41,916 bases of DNA from Candidatus Krumholzibacteriia bacterium. Lineage in GTDB: Bacteria; Krumholzibacteriota; Krumholzibacteriia; JAJRXK01. Position numbers and translations under genes: made by a program. Positions 18,764-39,688 of this stretch are shown here, in pieces (the stretch's first letter is position 1; each line of letters begins with the position of its first letter). Below the pieces are notes generated by a model. It saw nothing but the letters and a program-made list of their open reading frames with translations. It ran no database searches and was not told where the DNA came from. The DNA is taken from the NCBI GenBank assembly GCA_035268685.1, contig DATFKK010000038.1, positions 1 to 41,916 of the forward strand. The letters run 5' to 3'.

Positions 18764-19597
18764 TCAGAACCGTCCCCGGGCCCTCTCCTTCTGTGGAAGG
18801 ACCTCGAGGCAACTCGTCCACCAACCGGTCTCGATCGTCTCGACGAATTCGCGCGGCAATCGTTCGTCGCGCATCTCGCGGGCCAGGGCTTCGTGGTCGT
18901 ACTCCACGCGCCGGAACTCGACCCGGGGCCGAACGCGGGCTCCGTCGTCCACCGGGACCTCGATGCGTGCGTACCACACGGCGGGATCGCCGTCGTTCGC
19001 GGGGCGCCCGATGGCTCCCACGTTCACCAGCCCACGACCCGGATCGCCGGCCAGCATGCGGCTCCAGTGGAGACCGGTGTGCGTCACCAGGATCAGGTCT
19101 GCTTCGTGTTCGGCGAGCAGCCGTTCCACGAATCCCTCCGGTGTCGTCGACTCCCACAGGAACTCGTTCACGCGACGCGGTGATCCGTGGGCGCACAGGA
19201 CACGGAGTCCTCCCAGCCGTAGGCGGACGTGTCGGGGAAGGCTCCGCATCCAGCGGCGGTTCTCGTCACCGGTGTTCTCCAGCGTGTAGGCGTAGCTGAT
19301 ACGGGCGAAGTGCTCGTCCCGGGGGTCGGAGTATCCACACTGGCAATCCTCGAGTCCGTGGCCCACGCTGTCGTCGTAGTTGCCCTGCAGCACGACGATG
19401 CCGTCTTCGCGCAGTCGATCGGCGGAGTGGTCGGGGTGGGGACCGAAGCCGCCCACGTCACCCAGGCACAGCACCCGGTCGGCTCCCCAGTCCGCGGCAT
19501 CCGTGAGGACGGCGTCGAGGGCCCGGTGGTTGCTGTAGACCCCGCCGAAGACGGCGAGCCGTCGATGGTTCCCGGGCAGCGTCATCAGGTCCGACAC
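18764..19597 (-). CDS. metallophosphoesterase-fold protein with altered metal motif I
   Basis: The start is GTG 19597, with GGAGGG 6 bases upstream; it overlaps the radical SAM gene's end by 13 bases. The 277-residue product resembles calcineurin-type phosphoesterases of the YfcE/single-domain class: LCLGDVGGFGPHP (Asp47), VVLQGNYDDSVG (Asn73, Asp75), LCAHGSPR and LVTHTGLHWSR. Motif I, normally DxHxN, reads GVYSN (Gly19, Tyr21, Asn23), so the Asp and His that bind the first metal are both missing, and the usual GHTH is THTG. Either it is a non-hydrolytic relative or a subgroup with different metal ligands. Several Cys residues (EDCQCGYSDP) lie in an insertion. Confidence 0.75.
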   Translation of the reverse strand: MSDLMTLPGNHRRLAVFGGVYSNHRALDAVLTDAADWGADRVLCLGDVGGFGPHPDHSADRLREDGIVVLQGNYDDSVGHGLEDCQCGYSDPRDEHFARISYAYTLENTGDENRRWMRSLPRHVRLRLGGLRVLCAHGSPRRVNEFLWESTTPEGFVERLLAEHEADLILVTHTGLHWSRMLAGDPGRGLVNVGAIGRPANDGDPAVWYARIEVPVDDGARVRPRVEFRRVEYDHEALAREMRDERLPREFVETIETGWWTSCLEVLPQKERARGRF

Positions 19598-20562
19598 GAG
19601 AATCCCTCCAGGTGACACGTCGTGCAGGCCGAGTGGTTGAGTTCGATGGGGACGAAGGTCTCGTCGAGGTCGTCGGACATGCGCGCTCCGTCCTCTTCGA
19701 TCAGGATCGGGCAGGGGTACACTCCACGGGCCGTGACCGTGCGGCAACTCCCGCACTGCAGAACCCATTCCTCTCCTTCGTGCAGATCGTCGGGACGCAG
19801 GTAGCGGGAGTCTTCGCGGACCTCGTCCGCGACACCGCTCGTGGTCGTGCGGTCCCCGGATCGGGACGAGCGGCGGGCCTGCCGTCCGATGTCGAAGGGC
19901 GGGATGAACTTCACACGGGGACGTGTGAACCCGAGGTGCCGGAGGTGGTCGAGGAAGGCCTCGCGTCCGTCGCTCCGGTCGTAGACCGCGTGAACGGTCG
20001 TCACGGTGAACACGGGCAGGAGCCCGGCATCGACCAGACACCGCGCTCCTCGCATGATCGCGTGGTAGGTACCACGGCCCCGCACCGGGTCGTTCTCCTC
20101 GGGGGTGGTGCCATCGACGCTCACCCTCAACTCGAGCGAGTAGGCGCTCGCTTCCGAGAGCTCGTGGAGTCGCCGGGCCATGGGTGGGTCGATCAGGACC
20201 CCGTTGGTGAGTACGGAGAGCGGTGCCACGGCGAGCGCACGCTCGATCAGGAGCAGGATGTCCGGATGGAGGAAGGGCTCACCGCCCGTGAAGTAGAGTT
20301 CCTTGACGCCTTCGCGTTCGGCGCGCGCCAGACTCGAGAGCACGTCGTCGGTCGCCATCACCGGGTGGGAGTCGTTCTTCGGCCCGCAGGTGATGAAGCA
20401 GTGCGTACAGGCGAGATTGCACACGGTCCCCGTGACCTGCAGCCAGAGCACGTCGAGCCCCACGAAGTCGAGCACCGGACCCCGTGCCTCCCGGCTCGAC
20501 ACGGGGACGGCACGCCGGTCCGTCGATGTGCTGGTCGATGTCGTCGTGTTCGGGTCTTCCAT
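19585..20562 (-). CDS. radical SAM protein with SPASM-like C-terminus
   Basis: ATG 20562 is preferred, because AGGAAGG lies 9 bases upstream; ATG 20571 is an alternative. The 325-residue protein binds the SAM [4Fe-4S] cluster through C48-NLA-C52-TH-C55, followed by FITCGP, and has YFTGGEPFLHPDI and the LRVSVDGTTPEEND strand. The C-terminal 60 residues contain six further Cys (LQCGSC, VYPCP, SACTTC, FSC), typical of SPASM/twitch auxiliary-cluster domains found in peptide-modifying and other maturases. A Thr/Ser-rich N-terminal linker precedes the barrel. No precursor peptide was found nearby, so the substrate is unknown. It is encoded with a phosphoesterase-fold protein, a symporter-barrel fusion and a DUF2064 transferase. 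Confidence 0.88.
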   Translation of the reverse strand: MEDPNTTTSTSTSTDRRAVPVSSREARGPVLDFVGLDVLWLQVTGTVCNLACTHCFITCGPKNDSHPVMATDDVLSSLARAEREGVKELYFTGGEPFLHPDILLLIERALAVAPLSVLTNGVLIDPPMARRLHELSEASAYSLELRVSVDGTTPEENDPVRGRGTYHAIMRGARCLVDAGLLPVFTVTTVHAVYDRSDGREAFLDHLRHLGFTRPRVKFIPPFDIGRQARRSSRSGDRTTTSGVADEVREDSRYLRPDDLHEGEEWVLQCGSCRTVTARGVYPCPILIEEDGARMSDDLDETFVPIELNHSACTTCHLEGFSCRT

Positions 20563-20639
20563 CGCTTCCATCCTTCCTCTCGATTCGTGGAGACTCGATC
20601 TCGCGGTCCTGTTCCGGGATTCCGGTCGGGACGCGGGGG

Positions 20640-23138
20640 CTAGTAGTGGAGGTGCACGATGAACTCGATCCGATCGAGGACCGTCAGGTCGGGGTCGCCG
20701 AGTTCCCACCGCACGTACTCGGCGGTGAATCCCAGTAGCTCGTTCACGCGGGTCGCGACCCGTGCGGTGAGGAACCACTCCTCGAAATCCTCGGTGGAGT
20801 GATCCGCCGTCTGCCAGCTCGCTCCGACGTTCAGTCCGCGGACCTCGACCTCGTCGGAGTGCCAGATCGGCATCTCGAATCCTGCGAGCACGAAGTCGCG
20901 ATCGAGGGACGGCGTGCCGAGGTCTTCGATCTCCTCGTGCAGGAATTCCCCGAACACCCGGAGTTCTCGCCACTGCACCGTGAGTTCGGTTCCGAAGACG
21001 GTCTGATGCCCGGTCACGAGACCTTCGTCCGTCTCGACGGTGCGATCGAGGACCGATCGCTGCACGGAGACGCCGGGGCGGATCACCCAGTCACCGCTGC
21101 GCCAACTCGGCCGGATCCGCGCCCGCAGGGCGAGGGCCTCACGGATCGACGTGCTCACCTCCGGGTCGGGGGCATCCAGGATCAATCGCTCGCCGCGAGC
21201 CGCGGTGGTGAAGCTGCCGTTGAGACCGTCTTCGCCGGGGCTTCCCTGTAGCCAGATCTCCCAGCCGAGACCCTCCGACGGCCGCCGGTCCCAGTGGACC
21301 TGGAGGTTGAGATCCGGATCGAGCTTGTGACCGTTCAGGTAGGGAAGGTTCCCGAACCACGATCCGTCCCAGAACAGACCGAGCTGGTCGTAGACGAGGC
21401 CGGCGGCGACGTCGAGTTCTCCGTCTCGATGGGTCCACCGCGCGTAGGCTTGTTGCAGCCAGGTGTTCGACGGGCTGTAGGACCTCAGCTTCGTCTGCCG
21501 GAAGCGCAGTTCGGCCACGAAATCCCAGGCGTCCTGTTCGGCACGGCCCAGCAACCGGACGTTGTACACCTCGGTGGAGGGACGATCGAGGTCCCGCATC
21601 TTCGTCGTCAGACGGAGCATCGTCTGCCCGCCGAGATCGATCTCGGGTCCGTCGGCCCGTGCCGTCGGGACCGCGACGACGCCGACGAGCGCGATCAGCG
21701 CGGTGGTCGAGGCCAGGGCACGCGTCCGGGCGCGCGAGCGTGCGCGGTCGAGCAGGGCCCCGACCCCGAATCCTCCGAACACCAGGAGTGTCCCGACCAG
21801 ATTGGCTCCGAGCAGGGTGGCGTAGCTGCCCTCGCCCACGGCCCAACTCCCGGGAACGGCGTTCGTCGCGTGAAGGACGCCCATGCCCACGCCAGGCCAG
21901 AATCCCAGATGGAAGGCCCAGGGACCGGCCCAGGGCAGGGCGAACAGCAGGAAGGCCGGAGCGAGACCCAGGACCATCGTGCCACTGACCGTGGTCGCCT
22001 TGATGATCGCCGCGCCCGCGAACAGCGGCAGCGATCCGACGACGACGGCCCCCAGCATGGCCCAGCGTCCCAGTGCCACCGAGTCGCGCGCCACGATCCA
22101 ACGAAAGACCCGTGTCGAGACCGCGCGTTCGCCTCCGGCGCGGCCCGCGCCGCCCAGGTCCTGCACCAGCGCCTTCGCGACCGAACTGAGAGTCGAATCG
22201 AGCGTCGAACCCGCCGAGACCATCATGAGCACCGTCATCACCGCGGTCACGGCGATCCCGAAGGCCTGGGCGACCCGCAATGGAGCATCCTGGTCGGCCG
22301 CGATCCCCTCGATCCGGGCGTGGACCCCGACCAGTCCGAAGACGACGATGAACGTCGCCGCGACCAGACCTGCGAGCAGGTATCCCCGGAGCATGGTCCG
22401 CGGCCGGGTCAGGAACGCCCGGTCCGTCAGGACCGGGTCGTGGAAGGGGTAGCTGAAGGACTGGAGCACGGCGACGAGCAGGAGATCCACACCGCCGGCG
22501 AGTGTCCACGATCCCGATTCGAGGAGAGGGCCGGGGGTGCTGCGCGGAACCACCAGGGCCATCACGAAGACCAGCAGGAACAGTCCCAGACCCATCTGGA
22601 TCACGTCGGTGAGGATCGAACTCCGCAGACCTCCGCGCAGACTGTAGGCGAGGGTGATGGCAGTGAAGACGAGAGCCGCGAGAAGATACGACGCCGATCC
22701 ACTCGCGCCGAAGTACGAACCCACCACGGCCGTGTTCGACCAGACCTCGTTCATGAGACGGACGAGGACCACCAGGAGGAAGGCGAGACTCGCCATCCTG
22801 CCGTAGCGACCGGTGACGAACTCGGGCAGGCTCCGCGCGTCCGTGCAACGACGGATTCGCCAGATCACCACGCCCGCCACCGGGATCGAGAGATACCAAC
22901 CCGCGTAGGCCACGGCCCCGACGAGGCCGAAGCTCCGGCCGAGGTTGGCCGCGTTCGTGATCGACTTGGCGAAGATCCAGGAGATGACGATCGAGGCGAC
23001 CAGCACACCCAGGCCGATGTCGCGCCCCCGGCGGTCGCGGCCGCCGAAGAACTGATCGGGACTCGTCACACGTGGGGAGATCCGCCAGAGCACGGCGCCG
23101 AAGACGAGCATGGCGCCCCAGAGAACGATGTCGTGCAT
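20640..23138 (-). CDS. sodium:solute symporter continuous with an outer-membrane beta-barrel domain
   Basis: ATG 23138 follows a GAGGAAG site. Residues 1-470 are an SSS-family transporter: about 12-13 hydrophobic helices, YSLRGGLRSSILTDVIQMG and STLDSTLSSVAKALVQDL are family signatures. With no stop, the frame passes into a signal-peptide-like stretch (basic RARSRARTR, then a hydrophobic core, then PTARA, cleavage predicted between Ala495 and Asp496). The remaining 337 residues are porin-like: alternating strands such as LDVAAGLVYDQLG and a last strand FIVHLHY ending in Tyr, the C-terminal BAM signature. An in-frame GTG at codon 453 (21782-21780) could start a separate barrel gene, but its ribosome site is poor. 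True fusion with internal cleavage, a nested gene, or an assembly error are all possible. Confidence 0.8.
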   Translation of the reverse strand: MHDIVLWGAMLVFGAVLWRISPRVTSPDQFFGGRDRRGRDIGLGVLVASIVISWIFAKSITNAANLGRSFGLVGAVAYAGWYLSIPVAGVVIWRIRRCTDARSLPEFVTGRYGRMASLAFLLVVLVRLMNEVWSNTAVVGSYFGASGSASYLLAALVFTAITLAYSLRGGLRSSILTDVIQMGLGLFLLVFVMALVVPRSTPGPLLESGSWTLAGGVDLLLVAVLQSFSYPFHDPVLTDRAFLTRPRTMLRGYLLAGLVAATFIVVFGLVGVHARIEGIAADQDAPLRVAQAFGIAVTAVMTVLMMVSAGSTLDSTLSSVAKALVQDLGGAGRAGGERAVSTRVFRWIVARDSVALGRWAMLGAVVVGSLPLFAGAAIIKATTVSGTMVLGLAPAFLLFALPWAGPWAFHLGFWPGVGMGVLHATNAVPGSWAVGEGSYATLLGANLVGTLLVFGGFGVGALLDRARSRARTRALASTTALIALVGVVAVPTARADGPEIDLGGQTMLRLTTKMRDLDRPSTEVYNVRLLGRAEQDAWDFVAELRFRQTKLRSYSPSNTWLQQAYARWTHRDGELDVAAGLVYDQLGLFWDGSWFGNLPYLNGHKLDPDLNLQVHWDRRPSEGLGWEIWLQGSPGEDGLNGSFTTAARGERLILDAPDPEVSTSIREALALRARIRPSWRSGDWVIRPGVSVQRSVLDRTVETDEGLVTGHQTVFGTELTVQWRELRVFGEFLHEEIEDLGTPSLDRDFVLAGFEMPIWHSDEVEVRGLNVGASWQTADHSTEDFEEWFLTARVATRVNELLGFTAEYVRWELGDPDLTVLDRIEFIVHLHY

Positions 23139-23980
23139 CGGAGAGTTCTTCCTCGAGTCAGGGTCGCGGGACCCGGATCCCAGCGGCGTATCCGTTGGCG
23201 TCGGGCGGTCCACGGTCGACGGAGCGGGCTCGGGGCCCCGTCGTCCGGTGGTCCGCGACGCGATCCGGGTTGCCGCGCGATCGAGGAAGGAAGGGCGGTG
23301 CGTGCCGGTCGGGTGCGGCACCGCACGAGATCGGCGGGTGACAGGACCAGCGGATCGGAATAGCGCGAGCACAGATCGCGGAGGACGGTGTCGAAACGGT
23401 GGACGTCCTCGGGGCGATCGACGTCCGCGCGGGAGGGCAACCAACGGAGACGAGACCCGTGGTCCGCGGTCTCCGCCAGGGCACGGACGAAGTGCGGACG
23501 GAGGCGTGGTGTTCTCCACGGCAGGCCCCGGAGCCGATCGAGGTGCGCGTGCCGGATCGTCATGAGGTACAGGCCGCCGTCCGGGGCGGGCCCCTGTCGC
23601 AAGACGTCCCACGGGGCGCGCACGGCGCGCTCGAGATCGCGCGCCCGGAGCGAAGGGGTGTCCGTGACCACGGTCACGACCCGCTCGTAGCCCCGGACGA
23701 AGACTCGCTCCAGGGCATCGATCAGGCGGGCCTCGAAGTCCTCACCGCGCTGAGGGAGGGCGACGGTGCCGGCTGGTGCGGCCTCCGCGGGATCGAGCGA
23801 GACGAAGACCTCGGCGCCGGATCGTCCGCGCCGCACCGTCGAGATCGTCTTCCGGAGCATCGCTTCGCGGAGGGACGCCGCTCCACGTCGACCGAGCCCA
23901 CGGTGGAGGGTTCGGTCGGAACCGGTCCCGGCGAGCACCAGGATCGCGGTTCGGTTCGTCGCAGTGGAGCCGTCGGTCAA
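23066..23980 (-). CDS. DUF2064-family (TIGR04282-like) nucleotide-sugar transferase-like protein
   Basis: The domain begins TAILVLAGTGSDRT and continues REAMLRKTIS, PQRGEDFEARLIDALERVF, ERVVTVVTDTPSLRARDLERA and GPAPDGGLYLMTI, the CofC/MobA-like fold of DUF2064. TIGR04282 members were named for association with radical SAM proteins, which is the context here. Some substitutions are notable: the usual early KxPxxGxxKTRL lysine-rich motif is degenerate (GTGSDRTLHRGLG). No ATG or GTG suits; TTG 23980 just before the domain is the best start (304 residues). The last 90 residues are low-complexity, and 73 bases overlap the symporter gene, so the true C-terminus is uncertain. Confidence 0.7.
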   Translation of the reverse strand: MTDGSTATNRTAILVLAGTGSDRTLHRGLGRRGAASLREAMLRKTISTVRRGRSGAEVFVSLDPAEAAPAGTVALPQRGEDFEARLIDALERVFVRGYERVVTVVTDTPSLRARDLERAVRAPWDVLRQGPAPDGGLYLMTIRHAHLDRLRGLPWRTPRLRPHFVRALAETADHGSRLRWLPSRADVDRPEDVHRFDTVLRDLCSRYSDPLVLSPADLVRCRTRPARTALPSSIARQPGSRRGPPDDGAPSPLRRPWTARRQRIRRWDPGPATLTRGRTLRCTTSFSGAPCSSSAPCSGGSPHV

Positions 23981-30555: not shown

Positions 30556-30850
30556 TGTACGGCGTCGCCGGAGCAGCTCTCCGACCCTGAAGTCCGAAGG
30601 TGACCTGCGCCGGGCACCGCGTGTGCGGCCGCGGACCAGGCGAAGATCTCCACGAAGACGTTGCATCGTCGAGTCCCGATGCCGGAATGCCCGCCCGCGG
30701 CCACGAGAGCGGCGGCTTCCGAACGCAGGTGACGCGACTCCACAGGGACGTGGGCGCGAGTGGCACGAGTCCCAGCGTCACGCCACTGCTGCCGACCCGT
30801 AGCCTTCCTTGCGGGTCCGATCCGGAAGTCACGTCGAGGGAGAGTCGTTC

Positions 30851-32134
30851 ATGCACGTCGCCATCGTCGGCAACGGAGTCACCGGTGTCACCGCCGCGCT
30901 CCGCGTTCGACGACACCAGCCGGACTGGAAGATCTCGATCGTCTCCGGCGAGAGCACCTACCACTACTCGCGCCCCGCGCTCATGTACGTCTACATGGGT
31001 CACATGCGGTACCAGGACACCAAGCCCTACGAAGACACGTTCTGGGGCGAGCAGAGAGTGGATCTCGTACGCGACTGGGTGGTCGGTATCGACCTCGAGC
31101 GCAATCGATTGGACCTGCAACGCAGCGGTCGCATGGACTTCGACAAGCTCCTGATCGCTACGGGGAGCAAGTCCAACCGGTTCGGTTGGCCGGGACAGGA
31201 TCTCCCGGGTGTCCAGGGATTGTACGACCTCATGGACCTGCGCCTCCTGCACGAGAACACGCGGAACTGCCGACGCGCCGTGATCGTGGGCGGCGGGTTG
31301 ATCGGGATCGAGCTCGCCGAGATGCTGCACACGCAGGGGATCGACGTGACGTTCCTCGTGCGCGAGCGCGACTACTGGGACAACGTGCTGCCGCGTGAAG
31401 AGGCACGCATGGTCAGCCGCCTCGTGCGCGAGCACGGCTTCGACCTGCGGTTGGAGACCCAGCTCCGGGAGATCGTCGCCGGCGAGGACGGCCGTGTGGC
31501 CTCGGTGGTGACCGATCAGGACGACGTGATCGCCTGTGAAGTCGTGGGTCTGACGGCGGGTGTCTCGCCGAACCTCGACCTCGTGCGCGACACCGGGATC
31601 GCGACGGGCCGCGGAATCATCGTCGACCCCTCCCTGCGGACCAACGTCGAGAACGTCTTCGCGGCCGGTGACTGTGCCGAAATCGACGACGGCACCGAAG
31701 GGCGTAATCTCATCCAGCAGGTGTGGTACACGGGCAAGGCACAGGGCGAGGTGGTGGGCGACGTGATCGCCGGACGAGAACGTCGATACGAGCCCGCAAC
31801 CTGGTACAACTCCGCGAAGTTCCTGGATCTCGAGTACCAGGTCTACGGGCGGGTGAACCTGAACGTCGACGGCGAGCAGAACCTCTACTGGGAGCACGAC
31901 GACGGGATGCACGCAGTGCGGATCGTCCACGTCGCCGGGAGCGTGACCGGTCTCAACTTCATGGGGATCCGATACCGACACCGGACCTGCGAGCAATGGA
32001 TCCGCGACGGACGAGACGTGGAGTACGTGCTCGACCACCTGCACGAGGGCAACTTCGATCCCGAGTTCTTCGTCCGGCACGAGTCCGAGATCCGCAGATC
32101 CCTCCGCGAGCAATTCCAGGGAGCAATGGCATGA
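30851..32134 (+). CDS. NAD(P)/FAD-dependent pyridine nucleotide-disulfide-type oxidoreductase
   Basis: ATG 30851, after a GAGGGAGAG site, starts a 427-residue flavoprotein. Motifs: the FAD-binding VAIVGNGVTGVTAALR at residues 3-18, the LLIATGSKSNRF strand, a second Rossmann motif RAVIVGGGLIGIELAEML for NAD(P)H, and NVFAAGDCAEI before the C-terminus. No redox-active CxxC lies near the flavin, so it is not a thioredoxin- or glutathione-reductase type; nitrite reductase large-subunit-like, rubredoxin/ferredoxin reductase-like or NADH:acceptor roles fit better. ATGA links its stop to the next gene, a membrane iron-sulfur protein. Together they could move electrons between NAD(P)H and a membrane pool. 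A peculiar early segment, ESTYHYSRPALMYVYMGHMRY, is rich in Tyr/Met. Confidence 0.9.
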   Translation: MHVAIVGNGVTGVTAALRVRRHQPDWKISIVSGESTYHYSRPALMYVYMGHMRYQDTKPYEDTFWGEQRVDLVRDWVVGIDLERNRLDLQRSGRMDFDKLLIATGSKSNRFGWPGQDLPGVQGLYDLMDLRLLHENTRNCRRAVIVGGGLIGIELAEMLHTQGIDVTFLVRERDYWDNVLPREEARMVSRLVREHGFDLRLETQLREIVAGEDGRVASVVTDQDDVIACEVVGLTAGVSPNLDLVRDTGIATGRGIIVDPSLRTNVENVFAAGDCAEIDDGTEGRNLIQQVWYTGKAQGEVVGDVIAGRERRYEPATWYNSAKFLDLEYQVYGRVNLNVDGEQNLYWEHDDGMHAVRIVHVAGSVTGLNFMGIRYRHRTCEQWIRDGRDVEYVLDHLHEGNFDPEFFVRHESEIRRSLREQFQGAMA

Positions 32135-33567
32135 TCGACGCGCGGATGCTTCAGCACGACTTCGACGAGGAGGCCGAAGGCTTCTCGCGACCGCCACGGA
32201 GGCAGAAGCCATCGCACGGGACCCTGGTGGGTCGGGTGGCGCTCGCGGCGATCGCCCTCGCGATCACCGAGCTCGTCCTCGGCGCCACGGCCGGCAGTCC
32301 GTGGGACCTTCCCGCGATGCTGGTGGCGGGGTGGACCGTTCTCGGTGCCGCGACGGCCGTGTACTTCTGGGACCGCTACCGGACCCAGTCCGAGGGAATT
32401 CGACACGACGGGGTGTTCTTCGATCACATCAGCGCGCGGGGGCTGTCCGCGTGGCTGTTGGGCGTAGGGCTGACCGGATTCTACGTGCTGCTGTACTGGT
32501 TCCCCGGGCAACTGTCGCGTGTCATCGACCTGGTCGATCCGCTGTCGCGGATGCTCACAGGGCAACCCGCCGACCAGTGGTTCCTCTACGGCTTCCTGTA
32601 CACGGTGGCCGTGCTCGTCTTCGGTGTGCGGATGTTCGGGAAGTACCGCCACAGCCGCTACCACCAGATCCGGACCGCTTCGGTCATGTTCTTCCAGCTC
32701 GGTTTCGCCTTTCTGCTTCCGCAGATCCTGAAGGCCTTCAACGAGCCGGAGTTCTACTTCACCTACTTCTGGCCGCTGAAGCCCGAGTACCTGTGGCCGG
32801 CGGGCGCCGGCATGGGATGGATCCTTGATTCCGGGCGTCTCGGCGTGTTCATGATCTTCTGGGGCGCGATCGCGACCTTCGTGCTCACGCCGATCCTCAC
32901 CTACCGCTACGGCAAACGATGGTACTGCTCGTGGGTGTGTGGCTGCGGTGGTCTGGCCGAGACGATGGGAGATCCGTTCCGCCAGCTCTCGAGCAAGAGT
33001 ACGCTCTCGTGGAAGGTCGAGCGAGCGATCATCTACCCGGTGCTCGCGCTGGTGACCGTGACCACCGTGTCGCTGTGGATCGACTTCGCGACGGAAGGCG
33101 GCCTCTTCGGGTCGTTGTCGTCGAGCCTGCGGGAGTGGTACGGGTTCTACATCGGGGCCCTGTTCGCCGGTGTGATCGGCGTGGGGTTCTACCCCATCCT
33201 GGGGAGCCGGGTGTGGTGTCGTTTCGGATGTCCCATGGCCGCGATCCTCGGCATCTTCCAGAAGTTCGCCTCGCGATTCCGGATCACGACCAATGGCGAC
33301 CAGTGCATGTCGTGCGGCAACTGCTCGACCTATTGTGAGATGGGAATCGACGTCAGGGCCTACGCGCAGCGGGGGGAGAACATCGTCCGGGCCTCGTGCG
33401 TCGGCTGTGGCGTCTGTGCCGCGGTCTGCCCCCGGGGTGTCCTGAAGCTCGAGAACGGCGGCGACGTCACCGCGCGCTATCCCGGGGCCGATCGCCCTCT
33501 GGACGAGTTCCTGACGAGTCTGCGCAACGATCCCAGCGCTGGCCGGTACGACAATGAGTCCCGATGA
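32131..33567 (+). CDS. NapH/CcoG-like membrane protein with two C-terminal 4Fe-4S clusters
   Basis: The start is ATG 32131 (ATGA overlap with the flavoprotein). The 478-residue protein has about six to seven membrane helices (from residue 35). Between them are Cys-rich loops: C266-SWV-C270-G-C272 and C363-RFG-C367-P. Two ferredoxin-type clusters follow: C392-MS-C395-GN-C398-STY-C402 and C423-VG-C426-GV-C429-AAV-C433-P. This arrangement matches NapH/NosR/CcoG/YccM-type quinol-linked electron carriers. Acidic and basic termini (DFDEEAEGF, DEFLTSLRNDP) lie outside the membrane. It probably passes electrons between the membrane quinone pool and a soluble flavoprotein or reductase. The next gene starts 14 bases before this stop. 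Confidence 0.92.
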   Translation: MIDARMLQHDFDEEAEGFSRPPRRQKPSHGTLVGRVALAAIALAITELVLGATAGSPWDLPAMLVAGWTVLGAATAVYFWDRYRTQSEGIRHDGVFFDHISARGLSAWLLGVGLTGFYVLLYWFPGQLSRVIDLVDPLSRMLTGQPADQWFLYGFLYTVAVLVFGVRMFGKYRHSRYHQIRTASVMFFQLGFAFLLPQILKAFNEPEFYFTYFWPLKPEYLWPAGAGMGWILDSGRLGVFMIFWGAIATFVLTPILTYRYGKRWYCSWVCGCGGLAETMGDPFRQLSSKSTLSWKVERAIIYPVLALVTVTTVSLWIDFATEGGLFGSLSSSLREWYGFYIGALFAGVIGVGFYPILGSRVWCRFGCPMAAILGIFQKFASRFRITTNGDQCMSCGNCSTYCEMGIDVRAYAQRGENIVRASCVGCGVCAAVCPRGVLKLENGGDVTARYPGADRPLDEFLTSLRNDPSAGRYDNESR

Positions 33568-37811: not shown

Positions 37812-38699
37812 TCAGTCGCCGATCACCATGCGCCGCGTGATCTCGGCATCGGCGGTCCGGATCCTCGCTTCGTACACGCCCGGAGGAAGCCGGTGACCCG
37901 CGTCGTCCGTTCCGTCCCAGCGGACGACGCCGTCGGCGCGGTCGGTGTCGTCACCGATCACCGTTGCCACCCGCCGGCCGTTCGCGTCGTGGACGTCGAT
38001 CCCGATGCCGCCGCCTTCGGGCAGGACGAAGTCGAATCCGTTGCTCGTCGCCGCCGGCCGCGACCCGGGAGGAGATGCGTCGACCGCAGGCAAGGCCATT
38101 CGGGCCGGGGTCCGCCGCGAGTCGACGTACAGGTCCGCGTTGGGGCCGTAGAAGATCCGCATCGAATCGTAGGCCAGGCCGAGGCTCTCGGCGGCCGGAC
38201 CGACCTCTCCACTCGAGGCGTTGTAGCTCGACAGCCTGGCCCCGACCAGTTCGATCGCCATGTAGACCCCCGGCGGGAACATGCGACGCCCGAGCGCGTC
38301 GCTCCCGCCGGTCGTCAGTTTCGGCAAGGGCTCGTACACGTGGAGGACGAACCGGCTGAACTCCTCTGCATTGCTCTGGGCCCTCAGGAGCTTGATCGAC
38401 GAGGAATCCCACGCCTTGCTCAGGAAGAGGTCCGCGCTGGAGATCGGACCGGCGGGTCCGCCGTCCGGCTCGATGGCACGACCGGTTCCCCACTGGAACG
38501 ACGTGATCTCGATCGTCCCCTCCTCGCCGGGGAAGGTCGCGTCACCGTCGATCGGTCCCTGGAAGCGCCCATCGAGATCGAGGAAGATCTGGGCGTGGGT
38601 CGCCGGCACGGCGGTCAGGAGGATCAGGACGACGAGAGCGAAGATGCGAAGCACGGGCGCCTCCATGGGGCGGGTGTGGGTGTCTCGGCGCGCACTCAT
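37812..38699 (-). CDS. Sec-secreted Hcp-like protein with FlgD-like C-terminal domain (copy A)
   Basis: ATG 38699 overlaps the stop of copy B (ATGA), the preferred start; ATG 38666 also gives a full signal peptide. The 295-residue protein has signal cleavage near Ala36-Gln37 (PATHA/QIFLDLDG). The mature N-terminal domain resembles Hcp, the type VI secretion tube protein family: DLDGRFQGPIDGD, IEITSFQWGTGRA, DLFLSKAWDSSSIKLL, and LGLAYDSMRIFYG. The C-terminus (GIGIDVHDANGRRVATV, VRWDGTDDAG, PPGVYEARI) is an FlgD/T9SS-type Ig domain. True Hcp proteins lack signal peptides, so a different job is implied, perhaps an envelope-anchored or secreted fibre. No other T6SS or T9SS gene is in the window. 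Confidence 0.78.
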   Translation of the reverse strand: MSARRDTHTRPMEAPVLRIFALVVLILLTAVPATHAQIFLDLDGRFQGPIDGDATFPGEEGTIEITSFQWGTGRAIEPDGGPAGPISSADLFLSKAWDSSSIKLLRAQSNAEEFSRFVLHVYEPLPKLTTGGSDALGRRMFPPGVYMAIELVGARLSSYNASSGEVGPAAESLGLAYDSMRIFYGPNADLYVDSRRTPARMALPAVDASPPGSRPAATSNGFDFVLPEGGGIGIDVHDANGRRVATVIGDDTDRADGVVRWDGTDDAGHRLPPGVYEARIRTADAEITRRMVIGD

Positions 38700-39517
38700 C
38701 GCATCACCGACATCTTGTGGGTGGTCAGCCAGGCGCCGGAGCGCATCTTCACGAGGTAGACCCCGCTGGCGACGGGACGTCCGACGCTGTCGCGTCCGTC
38801 CCAGGAGATGCTGCCCTCCGATCCGCGGGTCTCGCCCTCGAAGACCGTCACGACGTGCCGGCCGCGGAAGTCGAAGACATCGATGGCGACCGAGCCCTGT
38901 TCCGGCACCCGGAAGCGGAAGTCCGTCGCCCCCGACGTGGGATTCGGCATCGACGCCACCGCGACGTTCTCCGCGAGCGCGTCCGGCAGGACCGACGACG
39001 CTCCGCCGGTGTCGGTGTAGACTTCGCCGGTGTCGAAGTCCCTCCACTCGAATCCGGTGTAGGTGAGCGAAAGGGCCTCGACGGCGCGAGCTCCGTCCGC
39101 CGCCCCGGAAACGGACCAGGACGTGATACGGGCGTCGGTCAACGTGATACGCAGATAGAGCTGGGACCCTCCCACGTCGTCGGGGCGGAAGGCTTCCAGG
39201 AAGCACGTGGTCATGCGTTCGGCGTTCCCGAACGCCCGGAGGATCGGGATCGTCGCCACGTCGGTCTGCTTGGTGATCGACAACTCCGAGGTCTGACTGG
39301 GCCCACTGGGGAGTCCCGTCGAGGGATCGATCGGCACGAAGAACCCGACCTGGAAGCTGGTGGTGGCGATGGTGCCCGTGAGTGGCCCCAGGTCGACGTC
39401 GCCGTCGATGGGCCCCTGCGTCTCACCCGCCAGGCGGAGATACAGCTGAGCCGTCGCCGGCGGGGCGACGCCCAGAAGGAGCGCGGCGAGCAGCAAGAAG
39501 AAGACCGAGCGGGGCAT
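38696..39517 (-). CDS. Sec-secreted Hcp-like protein with FlgD-like C-terminal domain (copy B)
   Basis: ATG 39517 follows GGAGG by 5 bases. The 273-residue protein has a clean signal peptide (hydrophobic FFLLLAALLLGV, cleavage near Ala23-Gln24). The mature start QLYLRLAGETQGPIDGD parallels copy A (QIFLDLDGRFQGPIDGD). Hcp-like marks: IATTSFQVGFF, ELSITKQTDVATIPILRAF, LYLRITLTDARITSW and LSLTYTGFEW. The C-terminal sorting-type domain is clear: MPNPTSGATDFRFRVP, VAIDVFDFRGRHVVTV, ISWDGRDSVGRPVASGVYLV. That 'NP..G.t.i.f..p' opening is the usual T9SS type A/FlgD form. Copies A and B are probably ancient tandem duplicates that now diverge strongly. Co-transcribed, copy B first. Confidence 0.8.
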   Translation of the reverse strand: MPRSVFFLLLAALLLGVAPPATAQLYLRLAGETQGPIDGDVDLGPLTGTIATTSFQVGFFVPIDPSTGLPSGPSQTSELSITKQTDVATIPILRAFGNAERMTTCFLEAFRPDDVGGSQLYLRITLTDARITSWSVSGAADGARAVEALSLTYTGFEWRDFDTGEVYTDTGGASSVLPDALAENVAVASMPNPTSGATDFRFRVPEQGSVAIDVFDFRGRHVVTVFEGETRGSEGSISWDGRDSVGRPVASGVYLVKMRSGAWLTTHKMSVMR

Positions 39518-39598
39518 GAAAGCCTCCGGGCTTGGGTACGGGTTGCCCGGATCGAGTCCGGACGCGACGAGCGAGCGTACCGCATCGGTGAGGAAAGA

Positions 39599-39618
39599 AG
39601 GGCGACAAAAAACGCCCT
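39599..39618 (-). terminator. weak terminator-like hairpin after the serine hydrolase
   Basis: AGGGCG (39599-39604) and CGCCCT (39613-39618) enclose an A-rich 8-base loop. On the minus strand the stem is followed by TCTTTCC, moderately T-rich, about 70 bases beyond the hydrolase stop. The 6-bp stem and wrong-side A/T loop make it weak. Confidence 0.35.
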
Positions 39619-39688
39619 GCTGTCCGTCCCGGTCGCCGCGTCGCAGCACGACCCCCGGAGCAGGGATCGCCGTTCTCGAGCCGCGCGC

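Follow-up and report, generated by a model that had tools for sequence, protein, structure and literature searches.

Few enzymes that form carbon-arsenic bonds are known, and the late stages of arsenosugar and arsenolipid synthesis in bacteria are ill-defined. ArsS is an arsenic adenosylase and ArsL acts in arsinothricin synthesis (PMC12159101, PMC8552651); as described, ArsL carries only the three cysteines of a CX3CX2C motif and likely holds a single cluster (PMC8552651). We analyzed a window of 41,916 nucleotides from a 4.6 Mb draft genome (99% complete) of a Candidatus Krumholzibacteriia bacterium, in which a minus-strand cluster has as its core a radical SAM gene (rSAM) and a gene for a phosphoesterase-fold protein (MPE). 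That rSAM and MPE form a conserved module is well shown by the genome comparisons below. Full-text searches of the open-access literature, subscription journals lying outside their scope, returned no description of the pair, in keeping with the preliminary description, which knew of no pathway with this gene set. The module occurs mostly with an FAD oxidoreductase (FADox), an ArsM-like methyltransferase and a derived DUF2064 protein, and the proposal that it serves an ArsS-independent, arsenosugar-like pathway forming carbon-arsenic bonds stands, in our judgment, an even chance of being right. If it is, a module carried by one in three genomes of an Acidobacteriota class, in the place of ArsS and beside an ArsM-like gene, would open new ground in arsenic biogeochemistry, in radical SAM chemistry and in how the phosphoesterase fold is re-used, and an unnamed gene pair becomes a directly testable hypothesis on arsenic.

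The four genes of the cluster are tightly packed, as the preliminary description had stated, and their order, strand and overlaps were borne out by open reading frames, Pfam matches and homologues. The DUF2064 gene (23066..23980, minus strand, TTG start) overlaps by exactly 73 bases (23066-23138) with a single 832-aa frame, which we call the symporter-barrel (20640..23138, minus, ATG start); 68 bases further on lies rSAM (19585..20571, minus, ATG start), which overlaps MPE (18764..19597, minus, GTG start) by exactly 13 bases (19585-19597). The cluster ends convergent with a plus-strand hemD-like gene 23 bases away, and a promoter and terminator scan found nothing. Homologues of rSAM and MPE (63-69% identical) and of the symporter (64% identical) confirm that these frames are coding. 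Elsewhere in the window, an Hcp-domain (T6SS_HCP) protein at 38696-39649 (minus) looks secreted and ends in a FlgD/Por_Secre-type C-terminal tail, the next gene downstream (37812-39206) appears similar by eye, and at 30809-33567 (plus) a pyridine-nucleotide-disulphide oxidoreductase gene overlaps one for a membrane 4Fe-4S protein.

Among 84,980 species genomes scanned, 38 close rSAM loci (L006-L043; rSAM 41-64% identical) came to light, in metagenome-assembled genomes labelled Krumholzibacteriota, Myxococcota, Acidobacteriota, Deltaproteobacteria, Gemmataceae and unplaced bacteria. MPE lies immediately downstream of rSAM in 35 of them (the exceptions being L011, L024, and L039), and the paired loci span Krumholzibacteriota, Myxococcota, Acidobacteriota, and a planctomycete. 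The adjacency is thus more than chance, and the two genes constitute the core of the window cluster. The pair is retained even at a distant alphaproteobacterial locus (L047; rSAM 27%, MPE 30%). It is also adjacent, at 67-69% identity, in a genome of the same family (G003, matching Candidatus Krumholzibacteriota JAJDAC010000022.1), where no DUF2064 or symporter match was found within 16 kb around it. Myxococcota loci hold only the rSAM-MPE pair.

The rSAM protein passes the Pfam Radical_SAM model (74.9 bits), and both its CX3CX2C cysteines (C51, C55, C58) and five C-terminal cysteines (C273, C287, C316, C319, C326) are invariant across 47 aligned sequences. The earlier label of radical SAM/SPASM protein therefore stands in its first half, on Pfam and CX3CX2C, and not in its second: five invariant C-terminal cysteines fall short of the seven-cysteine SPASM signature and appear nearer to the shorter Twitch-like type. 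The best NCBIfam match is the Rv1681 family (NF049973; 100 bits, cut-off 380), followed by mycofactocin and peptide-maturase families, and the ArsS model (TIGR04167) gives 51.5 bits against a cut-off of 300 (orthologues, ~48-63 bits). With scores far under the curated cut-offs, assignment as ArsS, mycofactocin, MoaA or peptide maturase was ruled out.

MPE passes Pfam Metallophos_2 (35.7 bits, cut-off 27), and its AlphaFold2 model (pLDDT 95.4) has SapH (3qfm) as the nearest solved structure, with a TM score of 0.76 and 27% identity. It is a calcineurin-like metallophosphoesterase fold without the D-x-H of motif I that belongs to the two-metal site. More specifically, the D and H of motif I are replaced by G and Y (G-x-Y) in 46 of 46 sequences, and in motif V, compared with SapH, a G stands in place of the second His; these positions are the metal-1 ligands of the fold. 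The metal-2 ligands D43, N69, H133 and H169 are kept in all 46, which also share three new invariant cysteines (C81, C83, and C259). The protein had been described as a degenerate metallophosphoesterase; this is true of the metal-1 half and not of the metal-2 half, and degeneration confined to one half argues against simple decay.

Clustering of neighbouring open reading frames revealed, in Acidobacteriota, the order DUF2064, ArsM-like methyltransferase, rSAM, MPE, FADox. The ArsM-like protein reaches 347 bits with the arsinothricin ArsM model (cut-off 500) and 215 bits with the arsenite methyltransferase model (cut-off 263), and 20 of 20 such enzymes keep the cysteine positions that they have in common with canonical ArsM. 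The ArsM and TIGR04282 matches both lie under curated cut-offs, and homology to ArsM is by itself no proof of an arsenic substrate. Phosphate-type ABC transporter genes, possibly for arsenate uptake, are inserted in some of these clusters, e.g., L024, L161, and L162. Genes for a type III polyketide synthase, an ICMT methyltransferase and an acyl-AMP ligase, possibly a lipid partner, lie divergently beside the rSAM cluster in L030, L034, L104 and ~14 other Acidobacteriota loci. Ferrochelatase genes also occur near rSAM clusters in this phylum, and thioredoxin-like genes were seen near clusters of DUF2064, rSAM, MPE and FADox (L163:1872-2207, L160:2246-2581).

The DUF2064 protein, a TIGR04282-like transferase of GT-A fold, passes Pfam PF09837 (52.6 bits, cut-off 25.8) and scores 74.9 bits against TIGR04282, under the curated cut-off of 134. 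The motif FAKxPRPGxxKTRL is missing from the window copy and from 13 of 13 aligned Acidobacteriota cluster copies, and is retained in an ArsS-linked copy and in the window genome's own DUF2064 paralogue; the cluster-type protein is thus a derived type without KTRL. DUF2064 genes lie within 6 kb of rSAM-MPE in ~15 of the 38 close loci, so that the association of DUF2064/TIGR04282 with radical SAM genes put forward in the preliminary description extends, for the window-type rSAM, to other phyla. In the cluster locus of G207, DUF2064 shares bases with a gene resembling arsenate reductase (131 bits, cut-off 174).

Co-occurrence was measured among 148 genomes of one Acidobacteriota class (Holophagales UBA5704, the class of the L041 genome), of which 49 carry MPE. 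On raw counts that ignore shared ancestry, FADox is present in 43/49 MPE-positive versus 0/99 MPE-negative genomes (Fisher 4e-31), the ArsM-like gene in 32/49 versus 3/99 (9e-17), and ArsS over its cut-off in 1/49 versus 26/99 (2e-4). In this class, rSAM adjoins MPE in all 39 genomes with both listed, FADox lies within 3 kb in 36 of 43 genomes and the ArsM-like gene in 22 of 32; the latter gene is missing in 17 of the 49 MPE-positive genomes. Outside this class, FADox is frequently not linked to the cluster, and was found in 20 of 24 rSAM-positive genomes versus 0 of 27 rSAM-negative relatives of the window genome (again raw counts, with shared ancestry ignored). True ArsS was found neither in G003 nor in any of the 22 other rSAM-positive genomes tested outside the window genome. 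The mutual exclusion of MPE and ArsS could reflect clade structure.

Gene order places rSAM in the slot of ArsS. In G110, a genome without MPE, an ArsM-like gene that is 68% identical to the cluster type is followed by true ArsS and then by a gene fusing TIGR04282 with TIGR04283; at the corresponding place, related genomes carry in order TIGR04282, the same ArsM-like gene, rSAM, MPE and FADox. In the alphaproteobacterial locus L045, TIGR04282 and TIGR04283 flank a distant rSAM and an ArsM-like gene is close by, and in G003 a curated arsenosugar ArsM (AsSugarArsM) adjoins FADox. AsSugarArsM was dropped as a tracer in Acidobacteriota, being present in 1 of 148 genomes.

The window genome itself has its arsenic genes elsewhere: an ArsR-ArsM pair on contig C79 (L072) and a true ArsS on contig C100 (L117), both unlinked to the cluster, so that the adjacency of ArsS and arsenite methyltransferase that marks an arsenosugar cluster is not seen at the window locus. 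FADox was not found in this genome, nor TIGR04283 in the window. With ArsM unlinked, FADox absent and ArsS on C100, the module is not a simple ArsS replacement here; the module may run parallel to ArsS or use its own product, and may draw on the unlinked ArsM.

The preliminary description had seen an envelope transport pair importing a compound through both membranes. What it took for a pair is one fused 832-aa reading frame, which is not conserved with the pathway. Residues 1-469 (21732..23138, minus) form a sodium:solute symporter domain (Pfam SSF, PF00474, 28.6 bits, cut-off 22.8; TIGR00813, 43.6 bits) with a weak PDB match to DUR3 urea symporters. By hydropathy, the frame continues through an Arg-rich stretch, a hydrophobic segment and an AxA-like site (RARSRARTR...TARA|DG; 21654..21731, minus), which may be an internal signal peptide where the two parts are fused, into a 337-aa C-terminal domain (20640..21653, minus). 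That domain has zero cysteines and Tyr as its final residue, and may be an outer-membrane beta barrel (beta-moment z ~2); its single-sequence model is strand-rich at a pLDDT of only 37, and Pfam, PDB and plasmid comparisons gave no homologue. As no ATG, GTG or TTG is found near the junction, independent initiation of the C-terminal domain is not evident. A polyprotein cleaved by signal peptidase is a reasonable guess from the sequence; the fusion may also stem from a lost stop codon or an assembly error. Among the close rSAM loci, linkage to a symporter recurs only in L006, as a separate gene (64% identical) just upstream of rSAM and without the barrel, which recurs nowhere; the nearest plasmid symporter (Marinobacter pHP-187, 52% identical) lies in an unrelated, chemotaxis neighbourhood. 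The symporter-barrel was therefore ruled out as a defining part of the cluster and is better regarded as a local, lineage-specific addition and putative transporter. Lack of co-occurrence across genomes, which the preliminary description had named as grounds for abandoning the grouping, comes close to applying to this gene; rSAM, MPE and DUF2064 do co-occur.

The earlier import-and-modify model is upheld in part: the view that the genes belong together as chemistry holds for rSAM, MPE and DUF2064, and the import half, as it was worded, finds no support. Instead of the uptake and modification of a small phospho- or sugar-containing compound, the neighbourhoods point to organoarsenical biosynthesis, because they comprise the ArsM-like gene, the ArsS slot, one arsenate-reductase-like gene and phosphate-type ABC genes. 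As rSAM-MPE usually stands beside arsenic-methylating genes and almost never with ArsS, it probably takes part in an undescribed organoarsenic route, and position and exclusion together make it the best reading that the two genes replace the ArsS step or run alongside it. That the substrate is arsenic is a supposition that we would expect to be right about half the time. In such a route, an ArsM-type enzyme would methylate As(III), and rSAM, with its auxiliary Fe-S domain, would form the next C-As bond in place of ArsS, by way of a radical derived from SAM or lying on the substrate. MPE, with one metal site and invariant Cys, could hydrolyze or hold a phosphorylated or As-thiolate intermediate; DUF2064 might transfer a nucleotidyl or sugar unit, and the FAD enzyme might set the arsenic redox state. 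The set with an ArsS-like position is apparently undescribed in the open-access literature. We put forward more tentatively, as somewhat short of an even chance, that rSAM-MPE(-FADox) is a widespread second route to a sugar- or nucleoside-carbon-As bond that evolved independently of ArsS and yields a new organoarsenical class in Acidobacteriota, Myxococcota, Planctomycetota and Krumholzibacteriota, with the one-metal, Cys-bearing MPE as an essential partner.

Several of these observations admit other explanations. The ArsM-like enzyme might act on another metalloid or substrate, with rSAM, MPE and FADox making or using a cofactor or small metabolite in a biosynthetic or maturation system free of arsenic. 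Such a system would accord with the nearest curated rSAM families (Rv1681, at 100 bits and under its cut-off, then mycofactocin and peptide maturases), with several Myxococcota loci where the pair stands without ArsM or other arsenic genes, and with the ferrochelatase and type III polyketide synthase genes nearby in Acidobacteriota. We nonetheless consider it unlikely, given that the same ArsM-like gene adjoins true ArsS in G110, that the catalytic ArsM cysteines are kept, and that the module and ArsS exclude each other.

A module that detoxifies or degrades imported organoarsenicals or their kin, for example by removing adenosyl, sugar or phosphate groups, with the window symporter importing the substrate, appears improbable: its slot is that of the biosynthetic ArsS, beside a methyltransferase and a glycosyltransferase-like gene, and conservation of the core does not extend to the transporters, even though a symporter lies upstream of rSAM at two loci, that of the window and L006, phosphate-type ABC genes occur in several Acidobacteriota clusters, and MPE has a hydrolase fold. 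Marginally less probable still is that the functional unit here is rSAM-MPE only, with DUF2064 and the symporter-barrel as passengers. The pair in the same-family genome G003, standing without either gene within 16 kb, speaks for this, as do the single recurrence of the symporter and the absence of the barrel from the other close loci; the linkage of DUF2064 in ~15 other loci, the KTRL loss common to cluster-type and window copies, and the adjacent symporter in L006 speak against it.

The module has several partial counterparts among known systems. The Rv1681 family provides the top curated model over the core domain of rSAM, of which only part is matched, at 100 bits versus 380. SapH, an Ap4A hydrolase/phosphodiesterase of the calcineurin-like type, shares with MPE its fold and metal-2 ligands and differs from it in the G/Y of motif I, the G of motif V and the three invariant cysteines. 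Arsinothricin arsQML (PMC8552651) likewise combines ArsM, a radical SAM enzyme and a membrane transporter, and its ArsM model is the best-scoring one for the ArsM-like neighbour; in contrast, the window-type rSAM has five further invariant cysteines, and arsQML is without MPE, FADox, and DUF2064. Arsenosugar biosynthesis (ArsM, ArsS, TIGR04282, TIGR04283) differs in that the radical SAM enzyme of the module is not ArsS, that MPE and FADox are added, that the module DUF2064 is without KTRL, and that, in the case studied here, TIGR04283 is absent from the window and ArsM is unlinked; like that system, however, the module in related genomes comprises an ArsM-like gene, DUF2064/TIGR04282 and an rSAM in the position of ArsS.
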